DNA of 64,000 nucleotides from Ascidia mentula. Its lineage: Eukaryota; Chordata; Ascidiacea; Phlebobranchia; Ascidiidae. The notes beneath the pieces are model-generated. The model did not search any database and had not been told where the DNA came from. It saw only the letters and a list, made by a program, of their open reading frames with translations. The position numbers were made by a program, and so were the translations under genes. Within the stretch, counting starts at the first letter, position 1. Each line of letters begins with the position of its first letter. The stretch is taken from positions 1,984,001 to 2,048,000 of the forward strand of contig OX387202.1 in the NCBI GenBank assembly GCA_947561715.1, in the 5' to 3' direction. This document shows positions 5,919 to 38,683 of this stretch, one piece after another.

Positions 5919-5996
5919 TATATAGATTTTGCCTATACGGCATCATCAGTATTCTAAAAGCAATTAGAATGATGTCGTATAGTCGAAATATATATG
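5919..5996. repeat. Inverted repeat with hammerhead-like motifs on both strands
   Basis: Arms 5919-5957 and 5964-5996 are near-complementary (ATACGGCATCAT against ATGATGTCGTAT, extended by TATATA on each side) around a ~6-nt loop. On the minus strand the left arm reads CTGATGATGCCGTATAGGC, and on the plus strand the right arm reads GATGTCGTATAGTCGAAA; each resembles one half of a hammerhead core (CUGAUGA, stem II, GAAA), degenerate. It is likely a miniature mobile element or a pair of opposed ribozyme-like modules. Confidence 0.5.
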
Positions 5997-6379: not shown

Positions 6380-6520
6380 GGTGATGCGGATAGATGTGTG
6401 AGAATGTCCATGAATAACGTCAAACACACTTTTCGTCCATGTTGCTGGGACAACCGAAATAAATTTATCAGCGAAATTCTTTTGTCACAGTCTTGTGACC
6501 GTGGTGGATGCAGCAATCGA
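6380..6520 (-). mobile_element. Ty3/gypsy-like relic, start of integrase
   Basis: The segment is homologous to 12120-12260, where the minus strand reads VFDVIHGPSHPSIR, the HHCC zinc-binding start of Ty3/gypsy integrase. Here it is more decayed. It is a fossil fragment with no LTR visible. Confidence 0.45.
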
Positions 6521-6530
6521 ACTAAGCAGA

Positions 6531-6964
6531 TTATAATGCAATATCTCTAGTGTTTGTGCGTCGTTCAAATCCAGTAGAAGTCATGGCACTGACTTTGACG
6601 CTCGTGTCGATTAGAAAATTTCGGCTGGAATGGCGTGCAAGGAAAAGGCCGATTGGTTTGCCGGTTACATAAGCCATTGCTGGCAACCAGCGTTGGAGTT
6701 TTCCTGGAAGGTGGTGCACAACATTACTGTGCTTTTTGCCTGAAACGTTTGTGGTAAAAAAAAGCACATGCCAGGAACGTCGGGCTTGCCAAATGTTTGC
6801 AGAGTTGCGCGATTCTTTTCTCTGCTTACAGAAAACTCGGACGTTGTGGTTCGTGCTTGCCACAATAATTCCGTGCGCTTTGCCAAAACCTCGGGGCAAC
6901 CAATAACAATACGAATGTCTTCGGGCATGTTTGCTTGACAAGTGTTCAAACATGTGATGATCAA
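6531..6964 (-). mobile_element. Ty3/gypsy-like relic, gag end and aspartic protease
   Basis: The minus strand carries a gag-like region followed by a retropepsin-like string, FLIDTSVKVSAM, then TGFERRTNTR, which matches the protease of invertebrate Ty3/gypsy elements (LIDTGA-VSA pattern). Further gag-like sequence may extend right to about 7250. It is a broken fossil in the same orientation as the other gypsy relics here. Confidence 0.55.
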
Positions 6965-8020
6965 CTAAAAACCAAGCATCTCGTCCATTAACGCCGATGG
7001 CTTTCGGTCGCCTAAGGAAGGCAAGTAGAATAAACGTGATGCGCGCTCCTGGCGAGAAAAGTCAGACGTGCCAACCGTGTCTTGATGGCTGCATACTTGT
7101 CTCTATCAGGTGGTGGTTCCAAAATATCAATCGGTCGACGCGCTGTGTCCTGATCTGGCGCGGATACAACGTCGAAATGCTTTGTTTATTCTTGCTTGTG
7201 GTTCCCAAGTGTAAACTGTGCTTTCAATTGCTGCAGACATACACGTGGTTATGAAGGCCAGAATGTCGTTAGCTTGACGATATCAGCATTTTCAGATTCC
7301 ATATTACGTGTAGTATTCCAGTAAATCTTTGTTGGAATGCTGGTTCACCAGTCAAAATGGTTGCAATTTTTGTCTAGAACGCCTCGAAACGAGTCCATAA
7401 CCATTGACATCCCGTGCAATATCATTAGGTTTCACATACGCCATGTTCAGTACTAATCTATTTAACTTTCGGCGCACAGATGTTGCATACAACAAATTGA
7501 AGGGAGGAAACCCCGGTTGATTTCAACGCACTAAAGCATAGTTGGTTTCATCTGTGCGAAAATACCTTGGCAGCTTGCGGTTGCAGCTTTTATTTTAAGC
7601 GCTCAGAAAGAGTCAGTTACAATGCATGCGCTTTATGTTATAAAATTGTCCTTTATTTTATCACAAATAACAAGAAGGCGATTGTTGGCAACCAAACTCC
7701 CTGTATTGTAATCTTATAACTTGGATCGCCGAGTCAAACTAACAAGCTAGTTCTACACTGGGTGGTCGTAAGATGTTTTATTATCAGGAATCGGTTTACC
7801 TCCGTCATTCATTCTGATACATATCTCACAATTACTTCGTCTGTCCCAGTTTTAATTCTTTTAAATAAATCGGATTTATTTAAATCGGGATAAGAAATAT
7901 TCGCGCTTGATTAAAAGTAATTATTACTTGTTTGATTCGTATTTTCAACGTATTGTTTATAAAATCACTAATCTGTGTTGTTATTCACACTTTGATTTAC
8001 TTGGATATTATTTAATTCAG

Positions 8021-8182
8021 TTGAAGGGGCTCAACCTCTGGGGCAACAATATAGAAGACCGTGGTGCGGTTTACGTGGCCGACTGCATCCACAACATTGA
8101 ACGAGTGGATCTGTTTGGATGCGGTCTGACAAGCGTTGGTGCCAAACATCTATCGGAGAAGATTAAACTGTTGAAGAAACCG
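8021..8182 (+). CDS. Leucine-rich-repeat exon (RNase-inhibitor type), copy 2
   Basis: A 162-nt phase-0 exon between TTTAATTCAG and CCG|GTGAGTG, encoding LKGLNLWGNNIEDRGA and a second repeat that starts IERVDLFGCGL. Both repeats keep the leucines of the RNase-inhibitor LRR consensus and no stop occurs. It is a duplicate of the exon at 3182 and is 4.8 kb away in the same orientation; since both are 162 nt and phase 0, splicing both in tandem would add four LRRs in frame. Confidence 0.7.
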
Positions 8183-8439
8183 GTGAGTGATTTCATGTCT
8201 TAGTCGGAATTCGTCCAACACACACGAACTTTTGTGAGTGTCGCGAGCAAAAATCCAACGCACGAAACGAAAGAAAGTTACAGGCTTAGTTGTTTAAATG
8301 CCGACTGTCGCCATATCGCTATGTATACCACAACTATAATTTAGAGACATTCTGAAGATCATGACTTTTTTGGATCTGTACTATACACCAAGTCGCTACA
8401 TGCTCCACACCAATCCAGCTATATACTGCTATCGCGTTG

Positions 8440-8890
8440 TCCCCGTAGACTTCCGTCAGGTAATTACGTCACGCTGATGTTTCTTCAGTCGTGTTCGTAA
8501 TGCGCGGCCAGTCTCACCAAAATCGACCATGTCGTAGTTGCCGCAGTGTGTTTAGTACACCACACCTCACACATCGGGCATATCTCCTGCGCAGTCCGAA
8601 GAAGGTAGTGTAACAGGCGGGCGTTCAAACATTTGGATGTGAAAATCTGTAAGAGGACGCATCAAGGTGTCAGATAGTTCTCCAAAATAAGGCAACACAA
8701 TCACTCCCATGGGAGTCCCCTCGTCGCATCTAGGCGGTGAAGCCTGGTTGCGCCGCATAAAGGAAGGATGGTAACCGTTCGCTCGCCCTCTTCACGTTAC
8801 ACACCTCCTGCTCCCCTACTTCTTCCCCAGAAATCAGGGTCTCTACTCAGTGTACATTGTACGTACTACACCGGAACCAGAACTTTGACA
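8440..8890 (-). mobile_element. Penelope-like retroelement relic, second copy
   Basis: The minus strand encodes VLPYFGELSDTLMRP then DFHIQMFERPPVTL, matching the segment between reverse transcriptase and GIY-YIG endonuclease of Penelope-like elements. It is the duplicate of 3600-4060 and sits at the same distance from its LRR exon. Broken fossil. Confidence 0.5.
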
Positions 8891-9329
8891 TAACATAACT
8901 GTGTCCAACTTCAACTTGCTTCTAGTTTTGGTTAACCTGCAGTAATGAATCACCGCTAAAAGCAAAGCTAGAAGCCACACGAAAAATAGCGACTCTCTTT
9001 GTGTTAAAGACTCGTAAAATTAGGAGGAAAAATGCGTTTACAAAGCCAAATAAAATAAATAATAATCAATAATCAATGAAATAAACAGAGAAAAATCAGT
9101 GATTAAATTAATGTGTGTTAAATCAATCAAATCGATAGAGATGTTAAAGAATAGAGAAGAATTGTTTGCACAACCACTTGTAACATTTGTTCGGTCGCCT
9201 GGTTTCGGTCCAACTTGATTCCCAGAAACTCCTCATCGTCACGCATCGTTAGTATCACTGTCGCCAACCATAACACTTACATGGGAACAACCAAAGACTG
9301 AACTTCCTTTGGTTCCATTCCCTTGATCT

Positions 9330-9990
9330 AATCACAATCGAGGTCTTCTCAGCGGCCTGGGGCGCGCTACCTGAACTGGCACGGACAAGTCCACGTGCGC
9401 TGGCTTCAGCCGATTGATGGATACGTGTTGGTTGCGACCGCCAATATCAAGTTTAAATGGAGCCGGAAAACTGAGGCATGGATAAACGAGGAAAGACGCC
9501 AATAATTGAAACGTTGGCAACAGTCATCAGCTGTGGAGTCAAATAAAAACATTTCTTCTTGGGTAGTTTCTCTGCAAACGCGTATGTGCAAGGCGTTGCC
9601 TGTGTATATCTGCCAACATCATATTAGGGTTAAATTTTTTGGCCAGCTCGCTGCAAAACCTTAAAGGGGATCGTAAGGAGTAATTTTTAATCAAGCGACT
9701 TGAAATTTTACAAACAAATACTAGAGTCAAGTAGAAAATGAGCATTGAAAATCGAATGTCTTTTAGTTTTTATTCTTGTCCGAAAACACATGGTTGAAAC
9801 TAGGGTGGCCAAGGTTTTGCGGAATTGACTAATTTTGACAGTCATTCGCGAGTCATTTAAACTTTTTTAGGCGACTGGAATTTTACACACAAGCTCTGCA
9901 GAAAACAAATAGTGAAAATCGACTTTGCGTATGTCTATTAGTTTTTTATTCCTGCGCGACAACCCGTGTTTGAAACTAGGGTGGCTAACG
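9330..9990 (-). mobile_element. Ty3/gypsy-like relic, integrase tail, with duplicated flank
   Basis: Copy of 1790-2470: the minus strand again shows VSINRLKPAHVDLS, followed by the double 176-bp block at 9680-9990. Broken fossil. It directly precedes further pol pieces at 10004-10590 on the same strand. Confidence 0.65.
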
Positions 9991-10003
9991 TTGCTTAGTT
10001 GCA

Positions 10004-10590
10004 TCAAGTTTCGATCGTCGTCAAGCTACGGTGCTCACAGTTTGTAGAACGTTTAATGACGTCGCCACAGGAAATATCCAATGGTATATGAAAGCGCGTG
10101 CGCACGTAATCCTGCATGGGAATTTCCTCTTGCCTGCGAGTAAAACGGTCTACCACCGTTAGTAAATACATCTTGCCATGACATTGCGGTAATGGCCCAA
10201 CTATGTCAATATAGACATAACTGAAACTGTTTGACGGACGTTGATATTCCTTTCGCGGCGCTTTGATGTGCTGTTGCACTTTGGATCGCTCACAGAACGC
10301 TAGAACGCTAACGGGTATCGGCGACTTTGTTACTTTTCTCGTTGATTTGCTGCACATCAGTGGTGAACTCCGATATCGCCGAAAGATGTCGCTGTTGACG
10401 TGCAGACCAAGGCTCTGTGTTTTTTTCCGAACTAAAAGTAGGAGGTTTATGGTTTGTTTACGCAGCAAAATTTCGCCCATCAATAAAGTATTGTAAACAT
10501 CTGATTGCTGGGTAAAGTGCCAACAGCTCACGATCAAATGCGCTGTGTTTGATTTCGGGCGTCCCCAGCTGACGGCTAAAGAATGCAAGT
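10004..10590 (-). mobile_element. Ty3/gypsy-like relic, integrase core
   Basis: The minus strand contains the string IDIVGPLPQCHG followed by YLLTVVDRFTR, the start of the DDE integrase core of Ty3/gypsy elements, with RNase H-like sequence upstream of it. Broken fossil, same strand and family as the relics at 1760, 4089, 6380, 6531 and 11971. Confidence 0.75.
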
Positions 10591-10789
10591 GGCTGCCAGT
10601 TGCCGTCGTTTAACTTTTATAAGACCAGGAATCAGTTTACCTCCGTCAATCACTCTGATACAAACTTACCAACTATTTCGTCGGGTTTTCCACACGGATG
10701 GAGATGATGTGAATATGTTAAAATTATCGAGATTGATCGCTTTCGGAATGCAGGAACTGACTTTGATTCAGAACGGGCGAACGGACGAA

Positions 10790-20841: not shown

Positions 20842-23800
20842 TCAATGATGCATAATTACTAGATACTTGGTTTCAAGTATCTGTATATAAAATACCGTTG
20901 TTGAATACTTCACACTTCCATTAGATTTTATCTGTAACATTTCCTTACATGTAGTATATGGCTGACCGCCGTAATCCCAGGTTCCATCGGATAGACAAGT
21001 GGCAGTAGGGGCTCCTGACATAGTTAGTGTTTGAGGATTGCAAATAAACGTGACAGTATTGAGCACTCCTTCCAAATATTCTGTCATCGGAAACATGACT
21101 TCGACGTTGGCCAGAGTCACTGGCGCCAAACAAACTGCAAAGAAAAAAGCGAGGGCGGAAGTCATCAATGTGGACAAAAAAATGATGAGAAATGAATTCC
21201 TGAAATGATTTGAGCAAAGTTACGCGAAATCGTGCAAAACGCCTGTAGTTTATTCGGCAACGCATGTAGTTATAACTTACCTGCAGTACGTGATTAAACC
21301 CGAGCAAACAATGATTTTTTTCGCTTAAATCAATACAACAAATAGGTAAGCACTTTATTTTCCGCGCAAGTCATTATATAACGAGTACCTCGTAGACATG
21401 TAGGTGCTGAACCAGACCAAGCAGGTGGATCGATAAATGTTGACCCCGCATTACAAGTGTTCATTGTTGGTCCTGAAAGTTGGTAGCCTGGAACACACCC
21501 GTATGTCACCACCTCTGAGAGCTTATACACCGCTTGGGTTGGAATGACGAATTGGTTGGCATCCAAAGGGACGTTTGGACAAGCTGCAAAAAAGTTGGTA
21601 ATAACAGTCCGCTTACGCCACAACAACTTCATATTGGGTCACCTGATTGGCAAGTGGCCAGTTCCGCTTCGTTAAACATCCATTCACCGTTACGCAAAGA
21701 CTCGTTGGTCATTTCTCCTCCAACAGGAATTTGGTTCGGAACCACACAGATGTAGGTAACTGAAGCGCCTTCCTGATAATTTGGTATGGGTGCAATAACG
21801 GTTGGAACAAGTCCCAATGTTGACGGAAGTGCATCGCAATCTAAAGAAGTAACATTGGTTTTGAGATCCACTCATTGCAAGGTTTCTGATATTTCCAATA
21901 TACCTTTCAGACAAGAATCTGTAACAGCACTCCACGTGAAGTCAGCTTGGCAGGTCGATGTTGGGTTCGTGGGATAAGTACTACTCAAATACCCACTGTT
22001 GCATGTGTACGTAACCACCCCACCGATCGAGTACGTTGGTCGTAAAGGCAGGTATGAGGTATTGGGTAGAAATGGTGGAGGAGGGACACAAACTTTTTAG
22101 ATACAAAAAGAGTTTGTTGACATAAAATGTATTGTGGACGTGTGTTAGGTACAAAACAATTGACTATATAGTGGTGTTAAAGTGGACTTACCTTGTGTAG
22201 GAACACACGTGTTGTTCTCATCCCGACAATATCCTGCTTTACACAGACATCCATTGAGACAAACAGCAGGACAAATTATTGGTGGTGGAGATCGGAGTGA
22301 GTCACAACTTGCACAACCACTTTCACAACTTGTTGGTGGGAAATATTCTTCGTTTATTCCACATTCTGAATGAGGAGAACGAGTATATTATTTATGCTCA
22401 CCATTATATTCAACCCGCGCACGCAGCGGTAATTAAGTTGAGTGGCTTTTATCGTATAGAATTGGTTTATACTGAAAACACTCACCCATTGGACAAGATG
22501 GCAAAGAAAGACCAGTTATAGACCATGTACCATCATCCTGGCAAATATTCATGGTTGTACCAATTGCTGTTGAACTATCATCACATGAGTAAGTAACTTG
22601 TGAATTTCTTGCATAAGCACCAGTCACCGGTAGAAATGAACCACCATCAATCGATGGAGGTGGACAGCATTCTAAAACGTACGAACACCAAGTATAAATG
22701 TTAGAAACACTTGAAACAGCCAGTACAAAATAACCCAGTGGCTAACCAGCACCAAGTATATATATATATATAAACATACCATTTTCTTTGCACTGTGTGT
22801 TAGCATTCCAATCTCCATTACTCCCACATATCATGGTGTCTGATCCGACTATTGTAAATCCACTGTCACAAGTATATTGGACGGTGGTACCAGGAATATT
22901 TACAGTTGCTCCTGCTGGGCGTGCGATTGTAAAAGTTGCATCGGAAATACTGACTGGAACTGGACAAGCTAGGTCACATCAAAAGGGCTGTATTAGTTTT
23001 GTAATGAAGAAGGCTATTTGGATTGAAATTGTTACAACACTGATGAAGGAAAGAGAACGATTAGGATGTTTCTGCATCCTCTATACAGTTTTCAACATAG
23101 ATCAACATTCTTTGTGTATTTAAAGCATTCGAAACCATCACAGACTCCAAGATTTAAAAGTGTGATTATTACCGCTTACCATTTGCATTGTACACGGGTG
23201 CACTATTTCGGTCCCAGGTTCCATCATTAAGGCAAGTTAATACCGAATTTTCTGGAGTTTCATGTAGAGACTCACAGGTATACGTAACAGTTTCTGATGG
23301 TTCATAGGATTCTTTTATTGGTGAAAATGTTCCAAAATCAGTTGTTGGTGGAAAAACGCATGCTAAAAAATATCTAATGTTAAATAGGTGTATTTAATAG
23401 ATATTTAACAGAATTAATAGTGAAGGTTGTCTTTCAAATCTTACCATATTTTGAAGGATAATAACAGGCTTTTTTATCATCATTCCAACAACATCCCGAA
23501 AGCTGACATAATCTCCTGCAACAAAGATTAATAGAGTCCACGCCAAAACAACAAGTTTTTCACATATTACCTTGTTGGACAAAAGAATGAACCGCACAGG
23601 ATGTTTGTTTCTTCACACCGCAATGAAGCAGAATCTGAACAACAGGAATATATTAACTGTTTTGTCGGTCCTCACTGTATTTGCGCAAAGCAATTTGCGA
23701 AAAAATTTTGCAAAATTGTGTAAAACTTTGCATTCTTCATAACAATTCCACGTAAGTAACTCGTCCGAACTTTCAGAGCTCCGTTTAACGAGTTTAGCTA

Positions 23801-24249
23801 TAAAGCCATGTAGTTGCGAATAATTTGAATCCTGATTAGAATCAAATATGTGGGAAAGTTAATGTAGGTTGCCCTGGTAGAATATAAGGAACAGACCAAA
23901 TCCAACTGAGCAACAACAAGCACATTTACATGTTGCCCCGTATGATAAGACTTCCTACCTTTCCTGTAACATTGCATGCAAGGATCGTTTGGTTGTTCGT
24001 CAAAGCAACAATCTCTGTGTGTAGAAACATGAAGTTTTGAAACAAGTTATTCAGATTAATAAATATTGCATCAACAAACAATCACGACAACTCCAACCTT
24101 CTTTCACACTGTGTGCGGGTGATAACGCTGCTCACACAAGCTTGTCTTCTTGCATACGACACAGCACAAGTCCTCCCAGATGCTTCCGTCTCAAAGCAGC
24201 AAACCAACAATATGCACCAGACAATAGAACAAGTATTGAACAAACACAT
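20842..24249 (-). CDS. Secreted trefoil-TIL-CCP mosaic protein, gene A (659 aa)
   Basis: Twelve exons, minus strand: 24249-24098, 24014-23959, 23634-23571, 23515-23445, 23362-23180, 22968-22780, 22671-22486, 22365-22192, 22092-21904, 21870-21643, 21583-21389, 21134-20842. They total 1980 nt and splice into one open frame from ATG to TGA. Exon 1 encodes a signal peptide (hydrophobic SIVWCILLVCC). Exons 1-4 encode two trefoil (P-type) domains; the first matches the family signature exactly (RQAC...T...C...DCCFD), the second ends SGCCWNDDKKACYYP. Three CCP/sushi exons follow, then a ten-cysteine TIL domain, then four CCPs; all are phase-1 cassettes. Trefoil, TIL and CCP domains are known from mucosal, coat and complement-type proteins, so an extracellular role is expected, but no orthologue is recognised. 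Two CCPs have lost a disulphide cysteine (TNES at about 21716; VYNAN near 23190), which suggests relaxed constraint. Confidence 0.8.
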
Positions 24250-24422
24250 ATTCAAGATAATTTAAACCGACTTTTGCTTTATTTCAGGTGTAACCTTGAC
24301 CCCAACGCAAATCTAAACGCGTAAACAGACATTATACGATATGTGATACTGAACGTTTTGTTCCGATTGTTGCCGTCTTTAGTTTCTGTCATTCAATGTT
24401 ACGCTTTTCGTATCACAAGTTC

Positions 24423-24638
24423 TCAAAACTTGTCGAGGCGTCTGTAGTACCAGGCTCTTTCAACCACAGCTGTGTCAAACCGATGCAACATATTAGTATT
24501 GTATATATCGCAACCCGTATCACAAACTGGTAAACAACAAGTACTGTAGGATATTGGAACAATGGCCACAGCGCAAGCATCCGTTCCTATTGTAATTATG
24601 CATTTTGTTAGAATGTTGGTTAAATATGTAAACAGCAT
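24423..24638 (-). CDS. Possible small secreted cysteine-rich peptide
   Basis: A 71- or 72-codon frame from ATG at 24638 has a hydrophobic start and then the cysteine-rich run YSTCCLPVCDTGCDIY. The homologous frame upstream of gene B (34915-35070) keeps the leader and all these cysteines but uses a different in-frame ATG and stops earlier. It lies about 175 bp upstream of the gene A start on the same strand. It could be a separate small gene, an upstream exon or a non-coding conserved stretch. Confidence 0.25.
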   Translation of the reverse strand: MLFTYLTNILTKCIITIGTDACAVAIVPISYSTCCLPVCDTGCDIYNTNMLHRFDTAVVERAWYYRRLDKF

Positions 24639-25591
24639 TGCGCAACCAAATGAAATGTGGGATTTATTATATCGTATGCAAGTATTATCTCAAAGACTAT
24701 TCAACTAAAAGTCATACGCATAAAAGTTGGGATTATAAATGTATTTTCATTTATATCAGCTACCTGTGGTATCGATAGATTACGTCACAATACAAAAATC
24801 TGACTCGTAGCTGATATCTGGGCGGTGTATTTATGTTTGAGTGGAATGGCGCATCAATGAGTATCAATGCCTTCAAAACCCCTTTATATTCCACAAGATC
24901 TCCAATCATGGGACGAATATTCATTGGACTTTGGGTACCATACCGACATAATTATTATTTTTGTATTGTTTATGTGTGTTGCTGATATTTTTGGTCAGAG
25001 GTTTTCTTGTGCTTGACGTTGTATTGGTGTCGGTACAAAGATTCACTGATCATTAAAGGTAAACACAACTCTTCCATTGACCGAATTATGCGATTATCAT
25101 CATATAGCCAAAAGTAAAGAGCAGACATCTTATTTTTGTGCACACCATTCTCCAAGTCGGACAGAAACTTACGTTTCGGTTTCTTGCAGAAGAAACTCAC
25201 TGCCATTAATCTTCAGGTTGCTGAATAACCGTCTGCCATTCTTGATTACAATCTATTTGTCGCTTCACTGTGGCCCTGGTAAGCGCAAGTTTTTAAACAA
25301 CAAACATTTTATACAAAGGGAGATCTATGCTTTATATAATTTTGTTTGTTAGAAGGAGATTATGACGGGAACGTATGAATAATTTGATGAGTTTGTTTCG
25401 TTTCTCTGTATATCGCCAAAAGCAATACTTGCGAAGTTTCGTAACTTTAGCGCTTTTTGTCCAGTTGATTGGAGATTTTTTGGAAATTTGCATTCAGTAT
25501 ATTTTCTATATATCCTAATGCTTGTTGCATAACAAAACATCGTGAGGTATCAAGTTTATTATATTGATCGCCAGACTCTTGGGAGCATAAT

Positions 25592-25960
25592 TCACCAATA
25601 TAACGCGGAAATCGCCATATTTTTGTTATGGACAGAAACAGCAAACGCATCACGAAACGTTTCTTCAGTGTTGAAATAACCCTTCTTAGAATCCTCCTGA
25701 ATCAAATCGTTTAGTTTTCCTGCATTATATTTTGGTCGCTTACGTAATACGCTCCATCCAGTATGAGTTCGTTTGTGGATTCTCCATAAGTTCGACGGTT
25801 TTCGCCCACTTCGCATCTGAAAGTTATTTTCGCCTGCAGAGATTGTGATGGAGAAACATGTTTTGCTTGAGGGTATTCCTCGATAGGTACAGTCCGCACC
25901 AGTCTTATTATGGGACAGTATGGGGTTGATACCTGGCACAACATAACCCGCAACGCATCA
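25592..25960 (-). pseudogene. C2H2 zinc-finger gene relic
   Basis: The minus strand shows FRCEVGENR in one frame and LWRIHKRTHTGW in another, i.e. the two halves of a C2H2 finger plus the start of a linker with a frame change between them. 25830-25965 is a direct repeat of 19320-19460. This is a decayed host gene fragment rather than a working finger protein. Confidence 0.45.
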
Positions 25961-26397
25961 AATGCGCGTACAACAAAATTTACTTCAACTTTGTAATCGT
26001 GTTTACAGTTTGAATATTAAAATAAATCGTTTGAAATATCTTGGAAATTTTCAAATGTTTGTTGTGAAATAACGACATAACTTATTAAACTGACATTCGT
26101 AAATAACATACAAACCAGTGTACAGTTTCAATAAAAAAATTTTTATATGTACAACAAAGCCATATTACTGAAACTAGCACCATTATAAGCATGGAAATGT
26201 TAGATTCCACTTGGACGAATAAATGAACGAGTTGCCATCTTCATGTGATATCAATAGCTTATATTTAAGTCGTTAGTTATTACTAAAGCACTGATTTGGA
26301 CAAACTGTCTGTTTACAAATTTTACTCTCACAAGCTTTCGCGAGCTTAGTCAGGTGCTACAAAAATCAAGAAGAAAAATATTTTACGTATTTCATAA

Positions 26398-26700
26398 ATG
26401 ACTGTCGTGTTTAAATGTGTTTTTGGTGTAGGTGTTACACAGCAGAGTGCAGATGTTCCAGTATTCTACAAAGTTGCAGAATACACTCAATTACATCAAA
26501 GAAAAATTCACCAAGTTGCAATGAGTGATGAGACATGTAAGCAGAGCATAAACCTATTCCGATCAACTGCAGTATATAGCGAGCTTAGAAAACGTTCCAA
26601 TAAGAGAATAAAGTACACTAGAACACACGCAGGTTTTGGCGGGAAGATGTTCCTATCTTTGCGCTGTGATCATCTGTTATCGTTCTTTCCTAACCATTAA
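26398..26700 (+). pseudogene. C2H2 zinc-finger gene relic
   Basis: A 100-codon frame holds YTQLHQRKIHQV and NKRIKYTRTHAGFGGKMFL, which look like the H-x3-H ends of two fingers, the second with a degenerate TGEKPF linker. The paired cysteines are mostly missing, so a functional product is unlikely. Confidence 0.35.
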
Positions 26701-28472
26701 CATTTTTACAGTTTTTGTACAAAGTTTTGTTGAATTTCTATGAAATATGTTCTGTCATATCGTCTGATAGAAGTTTGTGGAATAATAACTGAAACGTTGA
26801 ATAGCACATGTTTTGGTCAGAGAAGCCTTGATGCCATAGTTATTAAGTCCACTAAATACCATATGTTTTATGACCAACATTACTTGAGATCGTATATTCA
26901 CTACAAACTAAATTTCTAAATATCCTAAAGTTTGTTGTAAGTACATTTACAAATTTCTCCCCATTGTTCACCCAACACCATTCACCGATTTAAGCATAGT
27001 TTGGTGTTTTGTTGGGCAACAAACGTTGCAGTATGCTAGACAGGAAATAGTTAAACTTGTAGAATACCTAGTTTGCTCTCCGTTCGTCTGTTGTCCACCT
27101 TTGTTTTCTGATCGCTGATGTATTGATAGGCGTGGTCTTACTTTCCTGATTTTGTAGCCTATAAAAGTGTCCACCTTTTCTGATGTAGCCCAGTCAAAAC
27201 TAGCGGTTCAAAATCTCTGAGCATTTATAACGAATGTGCAACAAATATTACGTATTTCTAATTCGCTAACTGATTTCATGTAACAAATATTGTCGTAGAT
27301 TTACATCAGGTTTTTCATTAAAGTCAGATTAGGAAACACAACATTATAACTCGCTAGTGACCTTATGTCAAAAACACCAATCAATAGGATTTCCTTATAC
27401 TGTTAAATATTATTGGTGAGACGAATGTGCTTTTATAAGGATGATCTTAAGGTGACGAAGTGACGCAAAAATTTAAAATTCTCTACCATGACAGCGTGCG
27501 ACCAGCTGACAGCTATTTGACAGGACATAAACAAACAATTTGAAAAAACATATTTCATAATGGTGGTTGTTACGTTTACATGTTTACGTAACATGTACAT
27601 TTACACATATCATGAACATTCATCACAAATATCTAAATTACGTCATTAAAGTTCGGGAGCTCTCAAATTCGAATTGTATCGTGGTAAATATGGAATGCGC
27701 ATTCGTTGGTGACTTCATTTCCTGTTTTGTGTTAGAATTGTGTATTTTGTAAATCTCCCACGCCATTCTCACGCGATGTTCGTTGTTTTGTTTGACTGAC
27801 CAGTCTTTGTGCTTGCACGCGATCTATACCCGAACTGTCCAGTCATTGTTTGCAGAGGGTTCGCTTCTCACGTAATTGTTGTAATGCATCACTTGTTCTG
27901 GTTTGTTTTCAAGTACTTGTTTTGTGAAAATATGGGCTGCTGTCCATCAGATAAGATAATAGCTTTCGTCGTGGTAATTTCGAACCGACATTTTCGTTGT
28001 GGTAACTTAGAACTGACTTGTATTCTAGTGTATATATGTGCATGCTTTCTAGACTAACCCAGTCACAGTCACAGTCTCAGTCTCAGTATCTGTTTACTTC
28101 AGCTTGTAATAAGTTTATCTTGTGATATCGTAACTCGACGTTTCGATTCGATATACTCAACCAATATAATCGCGTATCCTTAATCTAATAAATGATAAAT
28201 TAACTTTGTTTCAGGTTTGTAATTAAAAGCAGGTCAGGAACACAACGGTTAGAACTCAAGAGTGGCCTTATGTCAAATGAATTAGTCAAATAGCATTTCG
28301 TTATCAACGGTTAATTAATCTTGTTAATATCCAACATTAAGTTAATAACATTTGGCTTGTAGGTCGCAACATTGGTGTATACATCGCTTCACTTAAATTA
28401 TTTTAGCACAAAAATAACATTTAAGTGAAACCAATTCCATATATTGCCGCTGCCAATTGCGAAAAAATGTCA

Positions 28473-31400
28473 TCAAGACTGTTCCCTACATGTAGTATAT
28501 GGCTGGCCGCCGTAATCCCAGGTTCCAGATGGTAGGCAAGTGGCAGTAACGGCTCCTTCCCTAACTAGTGAAAGAGAACTGCAAATAAACGTGACCGTAT
28601 TGAGCACTCCTTCCAAATATTGTGCCACAGGAAACATGACTTCAACGTTAGCCAGAGTCACTGGCGCCGGACAAACTGCAAAGAAAAATCGATGGCGAAA
28701 GTCATGAATATGGACGAAAAAATGAGCAGAAATGAATTCCCTGGTTGAATAAAGTTTGCGTTGATTAAACCCGAGCGAACAATGACTTTTTTCGCTTAAA
28801 TCAATCCAACAAGCAGGGAAGCACTTTAGTGTCCGTGCAAGTCATCATATAGTTTTATCTAAATACGAGTACCTCGTAGACAGGTAGGTGCTGAACCAGA
28901 CCAAACAGGTGCATCGCTAAAGGTTGCCCCAGCATTACAAGTGTTCATTGTTGGTCCTGAAACTTGGTAGCCTGAAACACAGCCGTATGTCACCTCCTCT
29001 GAGGGCGTATACACAGCTTGTGACGGGATGACGAATTGGTTGGCATTCAAAGGGACGTTTGGACAAGCTGCAAAATAGTTGGTAATAACAGTCCGCTTAC
29101 GCCACAACAACTTCATATTGGGTCACCTGATTGGCAAGTGGCCAGTTCCGTTTCGTTAAACATCCATTCACCGTTAGGCAAACACACATTGGTCGTTTCT
29201 CCTCCAACAGGAATTTGGTTCGGAAGCAGACAAATGTAGGTAACTGAAGCGCCTTCCTGATAATTTGGTATCGGTGCAGCTACGGTGGAAATAAGTCCCA
29301 ATTTTGACGGAAGTGCACTGCAGTCTATAGAGGTAACATTGATTTTGAAATCCACTCATTTCAAGGCTTCCGTTATTTCCAAATACCTTTCAGACAAGAA
29401 TCTGCAACAGCACTCCACGTGAAGCTTGCTTGGCAGGACGATGTTGGGTTTGCGGGACGTACACTACTCGAATACCCACTGTTGCATGTGTACGTAACCA
29501 CCCCACCGATCGAGTACGTTGGTCGTAAAGGCAGGTATGAGGTATTGGATACAAAAGGTGGAGGAGGGACACAAACTGTTTGGATAGAAAAAGGAATCTT
29601 AATCTGAAATGTACTATGTGAGATGTTTTATTCAGTGTATTTGTAGAAATCGTACAGTAAGTGGATTTTAAATACTATTTTTACATGAAATGTGCAACAT
29701 TCCTTCTCGAATGCTTGAAGGTAGATATTTGATTGAAGTTTGACGTCTATGCAAAATCATTTTGCGGACGAGATGAAATACACTTAAACCTGTTTTATTC
29801 TTCAAATTTTAATCACTCATCTTTTCTAATTATATTAACAGCATAATGAAAGTCACTTTAAGATGTTTACCATCCAAACACTCGGGAACTTGAGCCAAGG
29901 AGTACATCCAGTTTCCACTGACGCATCTGTTCGTTGTTTGTCCAACAATTTGTCCAACTTGCCCAGGAGCGCACACGTAAGTGACAACGTCGCCCTCTAT
30001 ATATGGCCCTATCCCAGGGTGAAATTCGGTACTGGGTTGGGATGGCGGTGGATTCGTGCATCCTTTGACGAACACACCAACACCTTTACTATATTAATCT
30101 AACACTCTTATTATTTCGGTATTTGCACCAAGACCAAAGCAAACATTTCTCTCCTTGCTTTGCAAAAAAGGCACTGGTTAATCCGTGGCGCTCAAAGTAA
30201 CGTTGTATTTTCGAAACTTAACAGTGTAGAAAGGAATATAAACTGCCGGTTCATCTCTTGGCTCGTCATCTTGTGATAATGCGTATCTGGGTCGATGTTG
30301 TTCAACATGTCGTCTAAATATCAGACCTCGAGGAATGACGTAATCCCGAACACTTTGACTACACCAATGATTGAGACCCAGTGACTGGACTCACAACGAT
30401 AATTTTCACAAAGTTGTCCCTCCCTAACAGAGAGCATAAAAACGGATATGCGCCAGGAAAACCATTCTACTGTTTTGTTTTGGCTTTGGTTGTGATGATA
30501 TTTACCAACCTCATAAAGGAACACAGGTATTATTCACGACAGAACAACTTAATAAAGTGTTACCTGGTTGACAAGTGGCAAGTTCTGTTTCGTTAAACAT
30601 CCATTCACCGTTCGACAAACACTCGTTGGTCGTTTCTCCTCCAACAGGGATTTGGTTCGGAAGCATACAAACGTAGGTAACTGAAGCGCCTTCCTGGTAA
30701 TTTGGTATGGGTGCAGGAAGGATGGAAACAAGTCCAAAAGTTGACGGAAGTGCATCGCAATCTACAGAGGTAACATTGTTTTTGTGATCTAGTCATTGCA
30801 AGGTTTCTGTTAATTTCAATTTACCTTTCAGACAAGAATGTGCAACAGCACTCCACGTGAAGTCAGCTTGGCAGGTCGATGTTGGGTTTGCGGGACGTAC
30901 ACTACTCGAATACCCACTGTTGCATGTGTACGTAACCACCCCACCGATCGAGTACGTTGGTTGTAAAGGCAGGTATGAGGTATTGGGCACCAATGGTGGA
31001 GGAGGGACACACACTGTTTGGATAAAAAAGGGTTTGCTAATGTGAAATGTACTATGTGAGATGTTTTTGTTTATTTTTACATTTATACTTGAGTTATTTT
31101 ATTCAGTTAATTTGCAGAAATCGTACAGTAAGTGGATTTTAAATACTATTTTTACATGAAATGTGTAACATTCCGTCTCGAAGGCTTGAAGGTAGATATT
31201 TGATTGAAGTTTGGCGTCTATGCAAAATCATTTTGCGTACGAGATAAAATGCACTTAAACCTGTTTTATTCTACAAATTTTAAGCACTCATCTTTTCTAA
31301 TCACATTAAAAGCACAATGGAATTCATTTTGAGATGTTTACCATCCAAACACTCGGGAACTTGAGCCAAGGAGTACATCCAGTTTCCACTGACGCATATG

Positions 31401-34400
31401 TTAGTTGTTTGTCCAACAAGTTGTCCAACTTGCCCAGGAGCGCACACGTAAGTGACAACGTCGCCCTCTATATATGGCCCTGTCCAAGGGAGAAATTCGG
31501 TACTGGGTTGAAATGGCGGTGGATTCGTGCATTCTGTGACGAACACACCAACACCTTTACTATATTATTCTAACACTCTTATTATTCAGGTATTTGCACC
31601 AAGACCCAAGCAGACATTTCTCTCCGTTTTTGCAGAAAAGGCATTGGCAAGTATGTGGCGCTCAAAGTAACGTAATATTTTCGAAACTCAACAATGTAGA
31701 AAGTAATATAAACTGCCGGTTCATCTCTTAGCTCGGCATCTTGTGATAATGCGTATCTGGGTCGATGTTGTTCAACATGTCGTCTACATATCAGGCCTTG
31801 AGGAATGACGTAAACCCGAACACTTTGACTACAGCAATGATTGATGCCCAGTGACTCGACTCACAATGGTAATTTTTAAAAAGTTTGTCCCTTTCTGATA
31901 AGGGGCATAACAACGGATATGCGCCAGGAAAACAACATAATGTTTTGTTTTGGCTTTGGTTGTGATGACATTTACCAACCTCACAAAGGAACACAGGTAT
32001 TATTCAGAGAACAACTTAACAAGTGTCACCTGATTGGCAAGTGGCCAGTTCCGCTTCGTTAAACATCCATTCACCGTTCGGCAGACACACATTGGTCGTT
32101 TCTCCTCCAACAGGGATTTGGTTCGGAAGCACACAAACGTAGGTAACTGAAGCGCCTTCCTGATAATTTGGTATGGGTGCAGTGGGAACAAGTCCAAAGG
32201 CAACCGGAAGTGCAGCACACTCTACAGAGGTTACATTGATTTTGAGGTCTACAGACTGCTTGGTTTCTGATAATTCCAATTTACCTTTCAGACAAGAAGT
32301 TGTAACAGCACTCCACGTGAAGTCAGCTTGGCAGGTCGATGTTGGGTTCGTGTGAAAAATATTCCTCGAATACCCACTGTTGCATGTGTACGTAACCATT
32401 CCACCGATCGAGTACGTTGGTTGTAAAGGCAGGTATGAGGTATTGGGTACAAAAGGTGGAGGAGGGACACAAACTGTTTGGATAAAAAAGGGTTTGCTAA
32501 TGTCAAATATACTTTGTACGTGTGTTAGGTAAAAACAATTGATTTTTTTTGTGGACTTGACCTTGTATAGGAACACACGTGTTGTTCTCATCCCGACAAT
32601 ATCCTGCTTTACACAGACATCCATTGAGACAAACAGCAGGACAAATTATTGGTGGTGGAGATCGGAGTGAGTCACAACTTGCACAACCACTTTCACAACT
32701 TGTTGGTGGGAAATATTCTTCGTTTATTCCACATTCTGAATGAGGACAACGTGTATTTATGATGTACTTGCACCATTATATTCACCTCGCGCACGCAGCG
32801 GTTATTAAGTTGTGAGGCTTTTTTCGTATATAATTGGTTTATACTGAAAACACTCACCCATTGGACAAGATGGCAAAGAAAGACCAGTTAAAGACCATGT
32901 ACCATCATCCTGGCAAGTATTCGTGATTGTACCAATTGCTGTTGAACCATCATCACATGAGTAAGTAACTTGTGAATTTCTTACATAAACACCAGTCACC
33001 GGTAAAAATGAACCACCATCAATCGATGGAGGTGGACAACATTCTAAAACGTACGAACACCAAGTTTAAATATTAGAAACACTTGTAGCAGCAAGTACAA
33101 AATAACCTAGTGGCTAACCAACACCAAATATATATATATATATATATGAAATATACCATTTTCTTTGCACTGTGGGTTGGCATTCCAATCTCCATTACTT
33201 CCACATATCATGGTGTCTGATCCGACTATTGTAAATCCACTGTCACAAGTATATTGGACGGTGGTACCAGGAATATTTACAGTTGCTCCTGCTGGGCGTG
33301 CGATTGTAAAAGTTGCATCGGAAATACTGACTGGAACTGGACAAGCTAGGTCACATCAAAAGGGCTGTATTAGTTTTGTAATGAAGAAGGCTATTTGGAT
33401 TGAAATTGTTACAACACTGATGAAGGAAAGAGAACGATTAGGATGTTTCTGCATCCTCTATACAGTTTCCAACATAGATCAACATTCTTTGTTTATTAAA
33501 AGCATTCGAAACCATCACAGACTCCAAGATTTAAAAGTGTGATTATTACCGCTTACCATTTGCATTGCACACGGGTGCACTATTTCGGTCCCAGGTTCCA
33601 TCATTAAGGCAAGTTAACACCGAATTTTCTGGAGTTTCATGTAGAGACTCACAGGTATACGTAACAGTTTCTGACGGTTCATAGGATTCTTTTATCGGTG
33701 AAAATGTTCCAAAATCAGTTGTTGGTGGAAAAACACATGCTAAAAAATATCTAATGTTAAAAAGGTGTATTTATGACATGGCAGTGAAAATTTAATAGAT
33801 TACAACTTCTCCGGACGCACACCATTATGTGAGGTTTGTCTTTCAAATCTTACCATATTTTGAAGGATAGTAACAGGCTTTTTTATCATCATTCCAACAA
33901 CATCCCCAAAGTTGACATAATCTCCTGCAACAAAGATTAATAGAGTCCACGCCAAAACAACAAGTTTTTCACATATTACCTTGTTGGACAAAAGAATGAA
34001 CCGCACAGAATGTTTGTTTCTTCACACCGCAAGGAAGCAGAATCTGAACAACAGGAATATATTAACTGTTTTGAAGGTCCTCACTGTATTTGCGCAAAGC
34101 AATTTGCGAAAAAATTTTGCAAAATTGTGTAAAACTTTGCATTCTTCATAACAATTCCACGTAAGTAACTCGTCCGAACTTTCAGAGCTCCGTTTAACGA
34201 GTTTAGCTATAAAGCCATGTAGTTGCGAATAATTTGAATCCTGATTAGAATCAAATATGTGGGAAAGTTAATGTAGGTTGCCCTGGTAGAATATAAAGAA
34301 CAGACCAAATCCAACTGAGCAACAACAAGGCCATTTACATGTTGCCCCGTATGATAAGACATCCTACCTTTCCTGTAACATTGCATGGAAGGATCGTTTG

Positions 34401-34659
34401 GTTGTTCGTCAAAGCAACAATCTCTGTGTGTATAAACATAAAGTTGTAAAACAAGTTATTCGGATTATAAAATATTGCATCAACAAAACAATCACGACAA
34501 CTCCCACCTTCTTTCACATTGTGTGCGGGTGATAACGCTGCTCACACAAGCTTGTCTTCTTGCATACGAAACAGCACAAGTCCTCCCAGATGCTTCCGTC
34601 TCAAAGCAGCAAACCAACAACATGCACCAGACAATGGCACAAGTATTGAACATATACAT
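28473..34659 (-). CDS. Secreted trefoil-TIL-CCP mosaic protein, gene B (1031 aa)
   Basis: Minus-strand exons: 34659-34508, 34423-34368, 34043-33980, 33924-33854, 33739-33557, 33345-33157, 33043-32858, 32735-32562, 32473-32285, 32248-32030, 31533-31342, 31013-30825, 30788-30564, 30062-29871, 29575-29387, 29354-29127, 29067-28873, 28675-28473. They total 3096 nt in one open frame. Order: signal peptide, two trefoil domains, three CCPs, a ten-cysteine TIL domain, ten CCPs. It is a tandem duplicate of gene A with six extra CCP exons, produced by repetition of a three-CCP block. Four CCP-CCP junctions across the pair are separated by introns of only 32-36 nt. The first trefoil has lost one conserved cysteine (DPSMQC where gene A has DPCMQC). 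A secreted, possibly defence, mucosal or egg-coat role is inferred from domain content alone. Confidence 0.8.
29387..32473. repeat. Tandem amplification of a three-CCP block inside gene B
   Basis: Equivalent exons recur at 29387, 30825 and 32285 (189 nt each), at 29871 and 31342 (192 nt each) and at 29127, 30564 and 32030 (228, 225, 219 nt), giving a period of about 1.44-1.47 kb. Introns are copied too: 29590-29830 matches 31050-31300, and 30063-30560 matches 31534-32020. Gene A holds a single copy of the unit and lacks the 192-nt CCP. Confidence 0.85.
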
Positions 34660-34914
34660 ATTTAAGATAATTTAAACCAAGTTTTTCTTTATTTTAGGTG
34701 TAACCTTGACCCCAACGCAAATATATACGCGTACACAGACATTACAATATGTGATACTAAATGTTTTGTTCTAATTGTTGCCGTCAATAGTTTCTGTCAT
34801 TCAATGTTACGCTATTTGTATGACAAGTTCTCAAAACTTGTCGTGGTGTCTGTAATAGTAAAACCAGTCTCTTTCCACCACAGCTATGTCGAACCGAAGA
34901 AACATATTAGTATT

Positions 34915-35070
34915 CTATATATCACAACCCGTATCACAAACTGGTAAACAACAAGTACTGCAGGATATTGGAACAATGCCCACAGCGCAAGCATCCGTTC
35001 CTATTGTAATTATGCCTATTGTTAGAATGAGGGTTAAATATGTAAACAGTATTGCGCGACCAAACAACAT
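34915..35070 (-). CDS. Possible small secreted cysteine-rich peptide, gene B copy
   Basis: A 51-codon frame from ATG at 35070 has an LFTYLTLILTIGIITIG leader and the run SCSTCCLPVCDTGCDI, then TAG. It is the homologue of 24423-24638 and lies about 255 bp upstream of the gene B start. The first ATG of the gene A frame is ATA here, but another in-frame ATG lies six codons upstream, so the leader stays open in both copies. Confidence 0.25.
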   Translation of the reverse strand: MLFGRAILFTYLTLILTIGIITIGTDACAVGIVPISCSTCCLPVCDTGCDI

Positions 35071-35348
35071 GCTGTATAGGATTTATTATATCGTAAGCAA
35101 ATATTATCACAAAGACTATTCAACCAAACGTCTTACGCATAAAAGTTGGGATTATAAATGTGTTTTCATTTATATCAGCTACCTTTACCTTTGGTATCAA
35201 TAGATTACGTCACAATATAAAAATATGGCTCGTATCTGATAACTAGGCGGTTTGAGAGGAATGCCGCATCAATGAGCTTGTATCACATTCCAAAATAAAA
35301 CGTCATATTGATGCTGCAAAGTTGTTCTGCCAATCATTTTATTATATC

Positions 35349-35384
35349 GACGTTCAGGTTGTTATGCAGCAGCCTTCATTAGGA
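35349..35384 (-). repeat. Degenerate Penelope-type hammerhead-like motif
   Basis: On the minus strand the order CTAATGA-AGGCTGC-loop-CCTGAACGTCG parallels the motif at 15974-16012 (CTGATGA-AGG...GGCCGAAACGTCG), but both core boxes carry substitutions. It probably marks the edge of an old element. Confidence 0.3.
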
Positions 35385-35998
35385 AGGGGAAAATGTGAAT
35401 TAACCAATGTTGACAATGTTGTGGAACAGAAACAGAGAAAAAAACGCTGCAGTAGAAAAGAAGAGGTGAAGAAACGATAAGAAAGGGCGAACACGTCTGC
35501 ACTACAATTATCAGGAACAACACGGGTTATCATGGATTTTGGAGTGCCCGAGATGTAACAGCAGAATTGCCTTGCAGGTGTCGATACACAAGGGGAAACC
35601 TTTTTCTTTAATTGAGTGACACAAATACACATTTATGTTAACGGACTCCAAAATAATTCTTTCGTGCCTGACAGACTTTTCAACGCGTTACAAAATCACA
35701 GTGTTTTCAAAGTCCTGTTTTGGCCGCAAGAAAATTATTGCCAGAAGATCAGTATTGCAGCAATAAAACATTCCTGGTAGCATCAGTAGTAATTTATTTA
35801 AACGTCATTGTCCCAATGGAACTCTTAAATTTTTGGATAAAACCGTGATGATGCAAAAAAATCCGATGAGACCAAGACAAACATCAATGGTCTGTGGTGA
35901 AGTCAAGCGTGGCCCCAACAGGAACCAAGTTGCGAGTCAATATCTCTGCACGGTAACATAAGGTAGTTTCCATAATTGATATCAAGTCGATAATTGAT

Positions 35999-38683
35999 AT
36001 GAGGGTAACATCGGTTGGAGTTTGTTTTATTATCTTGACTGGTTTCGCAAATGCATCAGGTAAGATTATGTGACGAAACGTCATAATGACGTCATGGTTA
36101 CAAAGGGCAGGTCTGGAAACTTAAAAAATCGCTCACGAATGACGTTGTTATCTAAGCTTTTATTATTTAACCGTAAATGTTTGGGTGACTTGCAGAATTG
36201 TATCCTTTATATGCTTACATATATTCTGAAATTTCAACAGTGACGATTTTACTAATACAGCTGTATACAACTGTAACATTGTCTGCTACCCTACTTATGT
36301 TTTCATTTGGTGCCGAGAATTAAATACTTGTAACTCTCTGTTTGTGTGTTCAACCTTGAATGTTTGCTCTTCGTTTACGTTTGTTGTTTTTCGAAAACCG
36401 ACGATGCCATAATTTATAATATATGTATGTGCGTGTATATATATATCCTATGATATGGCGTCTGGTCGATTTTACAATTAGAATATCCTAGAATCACTAG
36501 CTGTATTCACAACCACTATTTACCTGATGTGGGTAGGCGCACGATGGACCCAAGGACTTCTGCGTCCATTGGTAAACCGGGTTTTGTTTGTGATGGTAAT
36601 CAGTGCATGCCATCGCTTCACATCCACCTTTGCATACTTGTTATGTCAATAAAATTAGTCAAATCCTTCAGTTGTGCTAATTACAATTGTTGATTCAAAA
36701 CAAAGCCCATGACATGAAGTGTGAGTAATGTTGAACCCCGGCTCGTTATTTGTGGCCGACAGATATCGGTTGCTGTCTTTGAACTTCAGCGTGCAATCTA
36801 TGTGATCCCAAATAACGTGAAACCATGTAGAAATCAACTTCTTGTTGTGCAATATAATTTATCATAACAAAAACGCAAACTGCTTTACCTGATACAATTT
36901 TTTTATGCAGAGTTTAGTGGAAGCGAATTTTGGGAAAATGTAAACTTACTCGAGATCGCATTAAATAAATGCAAGTAAGTTGGTTTTAATCTTTAGTTCT
37001 ACTCGATTAATATTCAATGTCAACTTCATGGTTTAAATTTTATCGTTTTTTTTAATCTACCTGATATACCAAGTTATTTAGATTCAATTAATTTGTTGTG
37101 TATTCAGCCGTTACTTGATTTCCAGTTTTAATTCCTGCGTCACAGCTTTCTTTCATGCCCTCTAGGATTTGCAGAGATTCAACGAATCAAGAGTGTTTAA
37201 AGACAATCGCAAAGTTGGTTTTAAAACTGTCTGCTTATTTGCCTGAAAGTTTGACCGATTACATTCCGGGAGCAGTTAAGCAATATCTGGGTGAGAGAAT
37301 TGTAACAAACTTTACACCTCGTCGTAAATGAAAACACTGTAAACTGTTTGCTGTAATTTATCTGTACATTGCTATATTCTGTATATTGTTTAACGTGCAG
37401 TTTATACACTTTATACATGGCGATACAAATACCGTGCGCAAAATGTTGAATAAGTCAGCGCGAGTTTCTGAACATTTACGGAAGCTTGAAACAGAATAGA
37501 TTGTTCACAAAGGGAGAGGTTTGGTCGCACAATCAAAGCGTTTTTTTTTCTTGGACAAGTTAATTCTGTTGAAACATACCTTCACATCAGCTTAACCAAA
37601 GAGCAGCGATGAAAGTAAGCTTGGTCATTCCGTTTGGATTCACCTGGTGTGTCCCAATAGTCATGAGAGACTTATACTCAGCAAATTTATTCATTTATAC
37701 ATCCAGGAAATCTCGTTTGTATAACAGTAAGATTACTAATCGCCACAAGTTCGCACATGACAGCATCACACAACACACATATATGTCCAAGATACGAAAT
37801 ACAGCAAACACTTAATTCCCTAAAATACACAGCACAAATAATTGCAACAAAATCAAGCCACGTTTGTAAACTTGAACACGACTTTGGTGTGTTTCATTAA
37901 TTAATAAAATAACTAACCATTGTTGTTCCAGTGACCGCACTCGAACAATTACAGCTTGGAAAATGTGCAAGATGTGCAGGGTGCTCGTTAGAATGCATCT
38001 GTCACCAAAGAATGTGAGTGCATCATATGTATATTTATAATGTTTGAATTATCATTCATTTATTTTATTATGGCTCCAAAAGTTTTTAATTCGTTTCACC
38101 ACCGCAACAATACGTTTTTTTAATTCTTATGGAAGAACTTTAGCGTAGAATTGCAATGTTATAGATGGTAACGATTTATCCATTAGCACCTATAAAAATA
38201 GCTTATAAGTAACATAAGTCTAAGGCAAATCTTGAGGAAAGGAAGTAATCACTTTATATTTGCAGAAGTCGGTGTGGTAAATGCATATCTCCATGTTTAT
38301 CTTGTGGAATAAAACTGACCGAGAACTTTCTTCCTTTTTATGTAAAAATACCCCTTAATTTCATCATTAAATGTTGGGACGGTGCTGGACTTGGAGAACA
38401 GAACTGTCCCCTTGAATGCATGGAACATACTTGGTGTTTACTGTCCAAGTACGGGTGAGATAGGAAGTTGCATTGATTTAAAGCGAAGAATTTAAAAAAA
38501 GATAAATTTTATTATTGTAGAGAAGAGGAGAAATGCCACAAGAGTTTTGGAAGTTGCATGAAATGTATTGAAATGTGGATGGCGAGGGATCGATGGTTTG
38601 CCAAAATCAAAATGGAAAATCTCCTAAAAATTTTGAAGATGGTAAAGATATTGTTGGATATTTTTTTCAGACAGCAAAAGTAA
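35999..38683 (+). CDS. Unrecognised secreted cysteine-rich protein (227 aa), six exons
   Basis: Exons 35999-36059, 36911-36974, 37166-37290, 37932-38013, 38266-38454 and 38521-38683 all have good GT/AG borders and sum to 684 nt in one frame. Exon 1 encodes a signal peptide, MRVTSVGVCFIILTGFANA. The mature part begins with a helical region (FWENVNLLEIAL...KTIAKLVLKL) and continues with closely spaced cysteines (GKCARCAGCSLECICHQ, then CGKCISPCLSCG, CPLECMEHTWC and CMKCIEMW). No family is recognised. The last exon could instead splice at 38641 across a 29-nt intron to a stop at 38694. An AATAAA lies at 38756. A secreted disulphide-rich protein is inferred. Its location beside gene B may be coincidence. 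Confidence 0.65.

Follow-up and report, generated by a model that had tools for sequence, protein, structure and literature searches.

We examined a 64,000-nucleotide stretch of the genome of the ascidian Ascidia mentula (contig OX387202.1, positions 1,984,001 to 2,048,000, here called the window; C70:1984001-2048000 in our genome-wide numbering), and found that two neighboring minus-strand genes, A and B, belong to a dispersed set of genes with a common front end. This front end, the head, comprises a signal peptide, two trefoil domains and a first CCP domain (CCP1), and genome searches and mapping placed it at 15 or more loci on five contigs of the 196-Mb, 79-contig assembly. What follows the head differs among loci. 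One exon of A and B, encoding a TIL domain, has clearly moved alone between gene contexts. The explanation that we give slightly better than even chances is that both genes belong to a family encoding secreted, disulfide-rich mosaic proteins, with a common head, differing bodies, a history of exon copying and a surface-binding role.

Rebuilding from splice sites gave 18 exons and 1003 amino acids for gene B (34659-28473) and, downstream of it, 12 exons and 649 amino acids for gene A (24249-20842), each with an open frame, GT-AG introns and no internal stop. A preliminary description of the window had proposed two cleanly spliced minus-strand genes of 659 and 1031 codons; the genes stand, and the proteins prove slightly shorter. 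Its domain order is also recovered: signal peptide, two trefoils, three CCPs, one TIL domain (ten cysteines counted in exon 8), then four CCPs in A or ten in B. A phase-2 intron splits each trefoil. From CCP1 onward there is one domain per exon, in the phase 1-1 cassettes that had been described: these exons all start in phase 1, and all but the last end in phase 1. The CCPs after the TIL domain run alpha-beta-gamma, alpha-beta-gamma, alpha-beta, delta, epsilon in B, where the alpha-to-gamma block is an internal tandem repeat (88%), and alpha-beta-delta-epsilon in A. Gene A has an AATAAA about 159 nt past its stop; for gene B, a search of 900 nt past the stop turned up no AATAAA and no ATTAAA. 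The exons are listed here in coding order; each comes from the gene model, with any further support in brackets.

34508..34659, minus strand, gene B exon 1: signal peptide and first half of trefoil 1 (genomic copies)
34368..34423, minus strand, gene B exon 2: second half of trefoil 1 (Pfam)
33980..34043, minus strand, gene B exon 3: first half of trefoil 2 (below Pfam cut-off)
33854..33924, minus strand, gene B exon 4: second half of trefoil 2 (below Pfam cut-off)
33557..33739, minus strand, gene B exon 5: CCP1 (Pfam)
33157..33345, minus strand, gene B exon 6: CCP2 (Pfam)
32858..33043, minus strand, gene B exon 7: CCP3 (genomic copies)
32562..32735, minus strand, gene B exon 8: TIL domain with ten cysteines (Pfam)
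32285..32473, minus strand, gene B exon 9: CCP alpha1
32030..32221, minus strand, gene B exon 10: CCP beta1
31342..31533, minus strand, gene B exon 11: CCP gamma1
30825..31013, minus strand, gene B exon 12: CCP alpha2 (internal tandem repeat)
30564..30761, minus strand, gene B exon 13: CCP beta2
29871..30062, minus strand, gene B exon 14: CCP gamma2
29387..29575, minus strand, gene B exon 15: CCP alpha3
29127..29324, minus strand, gene B exon 16: CCP beta3
28873..29067, minus strand, gene B exon 17: CCP delta
28473..28675, minus strand, gene B exon 18: CCP epsilon and stop
24098..24249, minus strand, gene A exon 1: signal peptide and first half of trefoil 1
23959..24014, minus strand, gene A exon 2: second half of trefoil 1
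23571..23634, minus strand, gene A exon 3: first half of trefoil 2
23445..23515, minus strand, gene A exon 4: second half of trefoil 2
23180..23362, minus strand, gene A exon 5: CCP1, with tyrosine in place of the fourth cysteine
22780..22968, minus strand, gene A exon 6: CCP2
22486..22671, minus strand, gene A exon 7: CCP3
22192..22365, minus strand, gene A exon 8: TIL domain (Pfam)
21904..22092, minus strand, gene A exon 9: CCP alpha
21643..21840, minus strand, gene A exon 10: CCP beta, with serine in place of one cysteine
21389..21583, minus strand, gene A exon 11: CCP delta
20842..21134, minus strand, gene A exon 12: CCP epsilon, a C-terminal tail absent from gene B, and stop

Over the 12 exons shared by A and B the synonymous difference (pS) is 0.095 and the nonsynonymous difference (pN) 0.054, with pN/pS 0.57 overall (values given without a significance test); the excess of pS supports coding. 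In this comparison pN is below pS in five of the eight head exons, the other three having few changes, while in the tail pN is near pS in gene A exons 9, 10 and 12 and not in exon 11. Introns 1-7 of the two genes are 95.8% alike across aligned bases (range 90 to 100%), which may reflect conversion between these neighbors.

Trefoil domains are recognized by six cysteines in the P-domain pattern, Sushi (CCP) domains by four cysteines and TIL domains by ten; TIL protease inhibitors act through the loop between the fifth and sixth of these. Checked against Pfam, as the preliminary description had suggested, the assignments hold for Sushi, trefoil 1 and the TIL exon taken alone, and fall short for trefoil 2 and for TIL in whole-protein scoring. 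Sushi (PF00084, cut-off 20.7 bits) matches gene B at 5.8e-62 (206 bits) and gene A, two of whose CCPs each lack one cysteine, at 3.2e-36 (124 bits). Against the trefoil model (PF00088, cut-off 21), trefoil 1 alone scores 32.5 bits, with spacing C-x9-C-x9-C-x4-CC-x11-C, and trefoil 2 alone, with seven cysteines and shortened spacing, 13.6. The ten-cysteine TIL exon alone scores 31.7 bits (PF01826, cut-off 24.5); within the whole proteins the score is 21.9 in B and 22.9 in A. Its C5-C6 loop reads C-P-A-V-C. The closest solved structure is factor H for CCP1 (2e-11), with other CCP proteins matching as well, and pS2/TFF1 for the trefoil (0.003). After the signal peptide there is no strongly hydrophobic 19-residue window in either protein (maximum hydropathy 1.43 in A and 1.35 in B); a signal peptide with no clear anchor points to secretion. 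Neither protein has a Ser/Thr-rich stretch (at most 12 S+T per 30 residues) or an Ig or vWD match in Pfam at E 1.

Trefoil 2 (33854-34043) and CCP3 (32858-33043) each carry one odd cysteine in most heads, possibly forming a disulfide between domains or chains. Both odd cysteines are absent from head H4, and only that of CCP3 from H1 and H2, a pattern that speaks against a strict pairing of trefoil 2 with CCP3.

Exon 1 of gene B has at least 15 genomic copies at 87-100%, itself counted, and two partial ones at 80%. The heads, named by letter, lie as follows.

In the window (C70): heads A and B
C70:1.50 Mb: heads C and D
C71:15.29 Mb: head E
C70:5.50-5.53 Mb: heads F1-F3 (F1 at C70:5501932)
C67:21.99-22.05 Mb: heads H1-H4
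C52:16.0 Mb: heads I1 and I2
C1:25.25 Mb: head J

A weaker signal exon (H5, C67:22054515, 45%) was not counted, and F1, whose CCP1 breaks off, was left out of the splice-site, divergence and tree sets, leaving 14 of the 15 heads. At these 14, 180 of 192 splice sites are exact, nine are shifted by 3 nt and three could not be located within 12 nt; A and B themselves account for 30 of the 192. Recurrence of the head and its intron positions at 15 loci argues for gene structure more than chance. With splice sites kept at 14 loci it is unlikely that trefoil and CCP exons belong to separate transcripts, the case that had been named as refuting the proposed order.

CCP3 follows as the third CCP, at 70% protein identity or more, in 12 of the 15 heads; the exceptions are H4 (58% alike), H3 (close copies far downstream) and the broken F1. 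The bodies diverge beyond it. A TIL domain followed by CCPs is found at five of the 15 loci, A-E, one of which has a stop in the TIL exon, so the pair of TIL mosaics first described is real and too narrow a picture of the family. Behind the H heads lie CCP arrays, behind J CCPs, and behind the I heads unassigned cysteine-rich pieces. Pfam finds EGF_CA (1.9e-10) and fn3 (7.4e-7) exons behind F2, and a TSP_1 exon (4.2e-9) behind H5, all assigned by position and not by gene model. Fibrinogen-like pieces behind the C52 heads matched nothing in Pfam or PDB; a likeness to contactin-associated proteins is not claimed. A weak TIL-like match (34%) behind F2 and F3 was rejected, as it had no Pfam support. 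The segment holding gene B recurs on a second contig:

25292..38509, no strand assigned: gene B segment, recurring at C71:15282510-15294313 at 97-98%, with one CCP block fewer there

We rejected the possibility that this C71 copy is a misplaced haplotype of the window; no match above thresholds extends beyond window positions 25292 or 38509.

Some further repeats and matches were seen around these loci. A CCP block of gene D (C70:1496801-1499700) recurs at four other places on C70 (88-92%) and on C67 at 68-79%. A six-frame Pfam search of the genome gave 59 trefoil matches, none on C70, which we take to reflect the introns that split these trefoils and not to be counterevidence. Thirteen consecutive trefoil matches on one strand of C71:1626307-1633593 may be a many-trefoil gene. 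Between CCP exons downstream of H3 lies a 554-residue frame (C67:22039853-22041514) that is reverse transcriptase-like by eye; the portion of it run against Pfam had no match above cut-off.

The TIL exon provides the most direct evidence of exon movement. A DNA search at E 1e-10 found seven copies in the genome, five with introns and two exon-only.

32555..32760, minus strand: TIL cassette of 206 bp, with exon-only matches at C70:1749121-1749326 (99.0%) and C70:1074502-1074707 (98.5%)

The cassette consists of the exon with about 25 nt before it and 7 nt after, and outside these 206 bp nothing aligns between gene B and either exon-only copy. The two copies sit in runs of TIL exons (C70:1.749 and 1.074 Mb) that are duplicates of one another, where the adjacent TIL exons have 37-70% protein identity to the family exon; no family CCP or trefoil exon was found within the 8 kb examined at each. 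The introns of A-E still align with one another, yet here a 99% exon lies in unlike introns; whole-segment duplication is therefore insufficient, and the exon was copied alone. By eye the exon-only copies lie within A-E diversity, which suggests that the mosaic genes were the donors, the direction of copying being inferred. Exon shuffling, which the preliminary description had read from intron phase, is thus seen directly for this exon.

Two other exons may have been exchanged in a similar way. Permutation tests used eight of the 14 heads (B, F2, H1-H4, I1 and J); for H3 the CCP3 taken was C67:22035901, many CCPs downstream of its head, nearer CCP3-like exons being 60-62% alike. In comparisons of gene B with H1-H3, I1 and J, CCP3 has a pS of 0.09-0.20 and the signal exon one of 0.14-0.28, whereas CCP1 reaches 0.51-0.55 and the other trefoil exons 0.73-0.89; CCP3 falls below CCP1 at P 0.0002-0.0022 and the signal exon at P 0.0012-0.033. 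The sequence flanking CCP3 in B has no alignable counterpart in H, I or J, the best local matches being 7 to 19 of 120 bases. Near-full-length CCP3 copies at 84% or more number 22, counting that of gene B, on C70, C71, C67, C52 and C1; eight of them are in a CCP cluster at C67:22.447-22.456 Mb. The other head exons group A-E with F (support 100/99), while the best CCP3 tree places A-E with H1-H3 at a support of only 40/42. Grouping A-E with H1-H3 is rejected for the signal exon (p-AU 0.022). The evidence for exchange of the two exons is one of branch length, the topology tests not being decisive.

An alternative to exchange is constraint at the DNA level, through splicing or an overlapping element, with the TIL exon alone having moved; we give this a real but lesser chance. 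Uniform nucleotide constraint would give the near equality of pN and pS seen in CCP3. It also fits the topologies, since neither CCP3 (p-AU 0.16) nor the signal exon (0.18) rejects the A-E plus F grouping, so that exchange is not demanded. The pS of CCP3 is, however, roughly one-fifth to two-fifths that of CCP1, a reduction usually beyond what splicing constraint produces, and CCP3 copies of similar identity are also found away from the equivalent position, both well downstream of the head in H3 and within the C67:22.45 Mb cluster. From these comparisons exchange appears likelier than DNA-level constraint for both exons.

For the family as a whole, we suggest that tandem and segmental duplication are accompanied by copying of phase 1-1 exons from one locus to another, through ectopic conversion or template switching with end points near exon edges. 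A and B would be soluble. The trefoil head would attach to glycans in mucus or on cells, and specific contacts would be made by the CCP rods and the swapped modules; such proteins could act in recognition or adhesion, at an epithelium or on blood cells. The family may be restricted to this lineage. Trefoil modules have lectin activity and are found in mucus proteins (PMC7177656), and it is from this that binding to surfaces or mucus, with variable contacts, is proposed. A more far-reaching version, which we consider speculative and rather improbable, is an exon-exchange economy: TIL, CCP3 and signal exons, with few intron bases, would be copied often between dispersed genes, so that a secretion-trefoil head continually gains new binding modules and forms a germline-shuffled, perhaps individually variable, recognition repertoire.

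Several results weigh against the family explanation favored here or its parts. For exchange, the CCP3 effect is not shown between gene B and H4 (pS 0.41, P 0.064), the contrast is weaker from F2 (CCP3 P 0.005-0.10 against H1-H3, I1 and J, and 0.44 against H4), and the five pairs tested within H, I and J show no significant reduction of CCP3 or of the signal exon relative to CCP1, as constraint would also have it; the unrejected topologies belong here too. Trefoil 2 lies below its cut-off. Gene E has its in-frame stop within the TIL exon, head F1 ends inside CCP1, and two CCP cysteines are gone in A, so some members may be decaying. Glycan or surface binding by a secreted protein remains putative, as does the site of expression, and the gene models derive from genomic sequence.

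The last point, together with the E stop and the broken F1, could also mean that the mosaic order is an artefact of chaining exons from different transcripts, or that most of these genes are pseudogenes; we consider this very improbable, since 14 loci spread over five contigs repeat one chain of exons with its phases, A and B have no internal stop, and their overall pN/pS speaks against it. A serious competitor, clearly behind our favored explanation, is that these are structural proteins of mucus, tunic, egg coat or other matrix, in which the modules are linkers and their turnover is drift under relaxed selection. EGF, FN3 and TSP1 are common matrix modules, and exons for all three are present in the family surroundings; three of the four tail exons of A and B have pN near pS. 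Frog skin mucins combine trefoils (FIM-A.1, FIM-C.1) or a short consensus repeat (FIM-B.1) with mucin parts (PMC7177656). A structural role fits less well with the lack of any Ser/Thr-rich stretch and with pN below pS in most head exons. Complement regulators or receptors of the factor H kind, their CCP rods binding C3 fragments and their trefoils targeting them, are a doubtful alternative. Such regulators bind C3b and have cofactor or decay activity; the likeness here is confined to a sequence match between CCP1 and factor H CCPs, matches to other CCP proteins are seen as well, and bodies without long CCP arrays exist. The best solved match being factor H does favor this role, as does a variable CCP protein of Ciona that resembles a complement receptor (PMC5465252). 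Present data do not distinguish recognition, matrix and complement roles.

The preliminary description had recognized the order in no named protein, and the open-licence literature searched, as far as its text was available, likewise turned up no trefoil-TIL-CCP architecture. Its view of the region as a candidate for an undescribed extracellular system stays conjectural. The frog skin mucins FIM-A.1, FIM-B.1 and FIM-C.1 are similar in being secreted, in having shuffled trefoils (A.1, C.1) or short consensus repeats (B.1, known from a title cited within that paper) and in their polymorphic forms (PMC7177656). They differ in being mucins, FIM-B.1 with vWD domains, and an order of two trefoils, CCPs and TIL is not described in the parts of that paper available; A and B lack the vWD match and Ser/Thr-rich stretch of gel-forming mucins of this kind. 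The genes of complement factor H and its relatives (CFHR) also encode CCP proteins and show segmental duplications, gene conversion and hybrid paralogues (PMC6052053). They are in tandem at one place, whereas the present loci are spread over five contigs. To our knowledge they have no trefoil, TIL, EGF or FN3. The SpTransformer (Sp185/333) genes of sea urchin are similar as an immune family with repeats and segmental duplications; we know of no CCP, trefoil or TIL modules in them.

Among tunicates, vCRL1 of Ciona is a CCP-domain protein that varies between individuals; it is likened to a vertebrate complement receptor, with no trefoil or TIL in the available description, which is all that we compared (PMC5465252). 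The fester family and its co-receptors in Botryllus are large families with sushi domains and gene-content variation, and in fester and uncle fester one gene end is common while the other differs (PMC12065747). These receptors have Ig and transmembrane domains (PMC12065747), whereas here the 5′ head is common and the rest differs. With no Ig match and no strongly hydrophobic window, A and B are set apart from them by domains, not by sequence comparison.

Other features were noted in the window and genome. A single long frame at 47786-49939 (minus strand) has RUN (2.3e-25) and PX (8.8e-17) domains. Three enoyl-CoA hydratase/isomerase exons (53135-53497, 58782-59276 and 61921-62256, minus strand) are probably from tandem genes. 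Possible retroelement remains lie at 4138-10609, with an integrase match at 10007-10609 (0.0034, below cut-off) and none at 4138-4533; 7865-8200 has a weak LRR match. GH6 fused to animal cellulose synthase is a tunicate mark, and a GH6 domain exceeds the cut-off (27) at two genome loci (32.0 and 27.8 bits, the second with an internal stop), with a frame that looks membrane-like by eye upstream of one.

The modules themselves, exchange among CCP genes (CFH/CFHR) and the tunicate sushi/CCP families are already known; what appears to be new is the head described here, the differing bodies attached to it and the transfer of an exon alone. Exon shuffling has mostly been inferred from ancient phase patterns. 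Here one exon is almost unchanged in two gene contexts, with edges near splice sites, which makes the donor, the acceptor and the junction readable. Should CCP3 and the signal exon prove to move in this way too, the rates at which exons are transferred, and the mechanism, would be testable between individuals and sister species. A trefoil-headed CCP family also joins the secreted proteins of a vertebrate relative.

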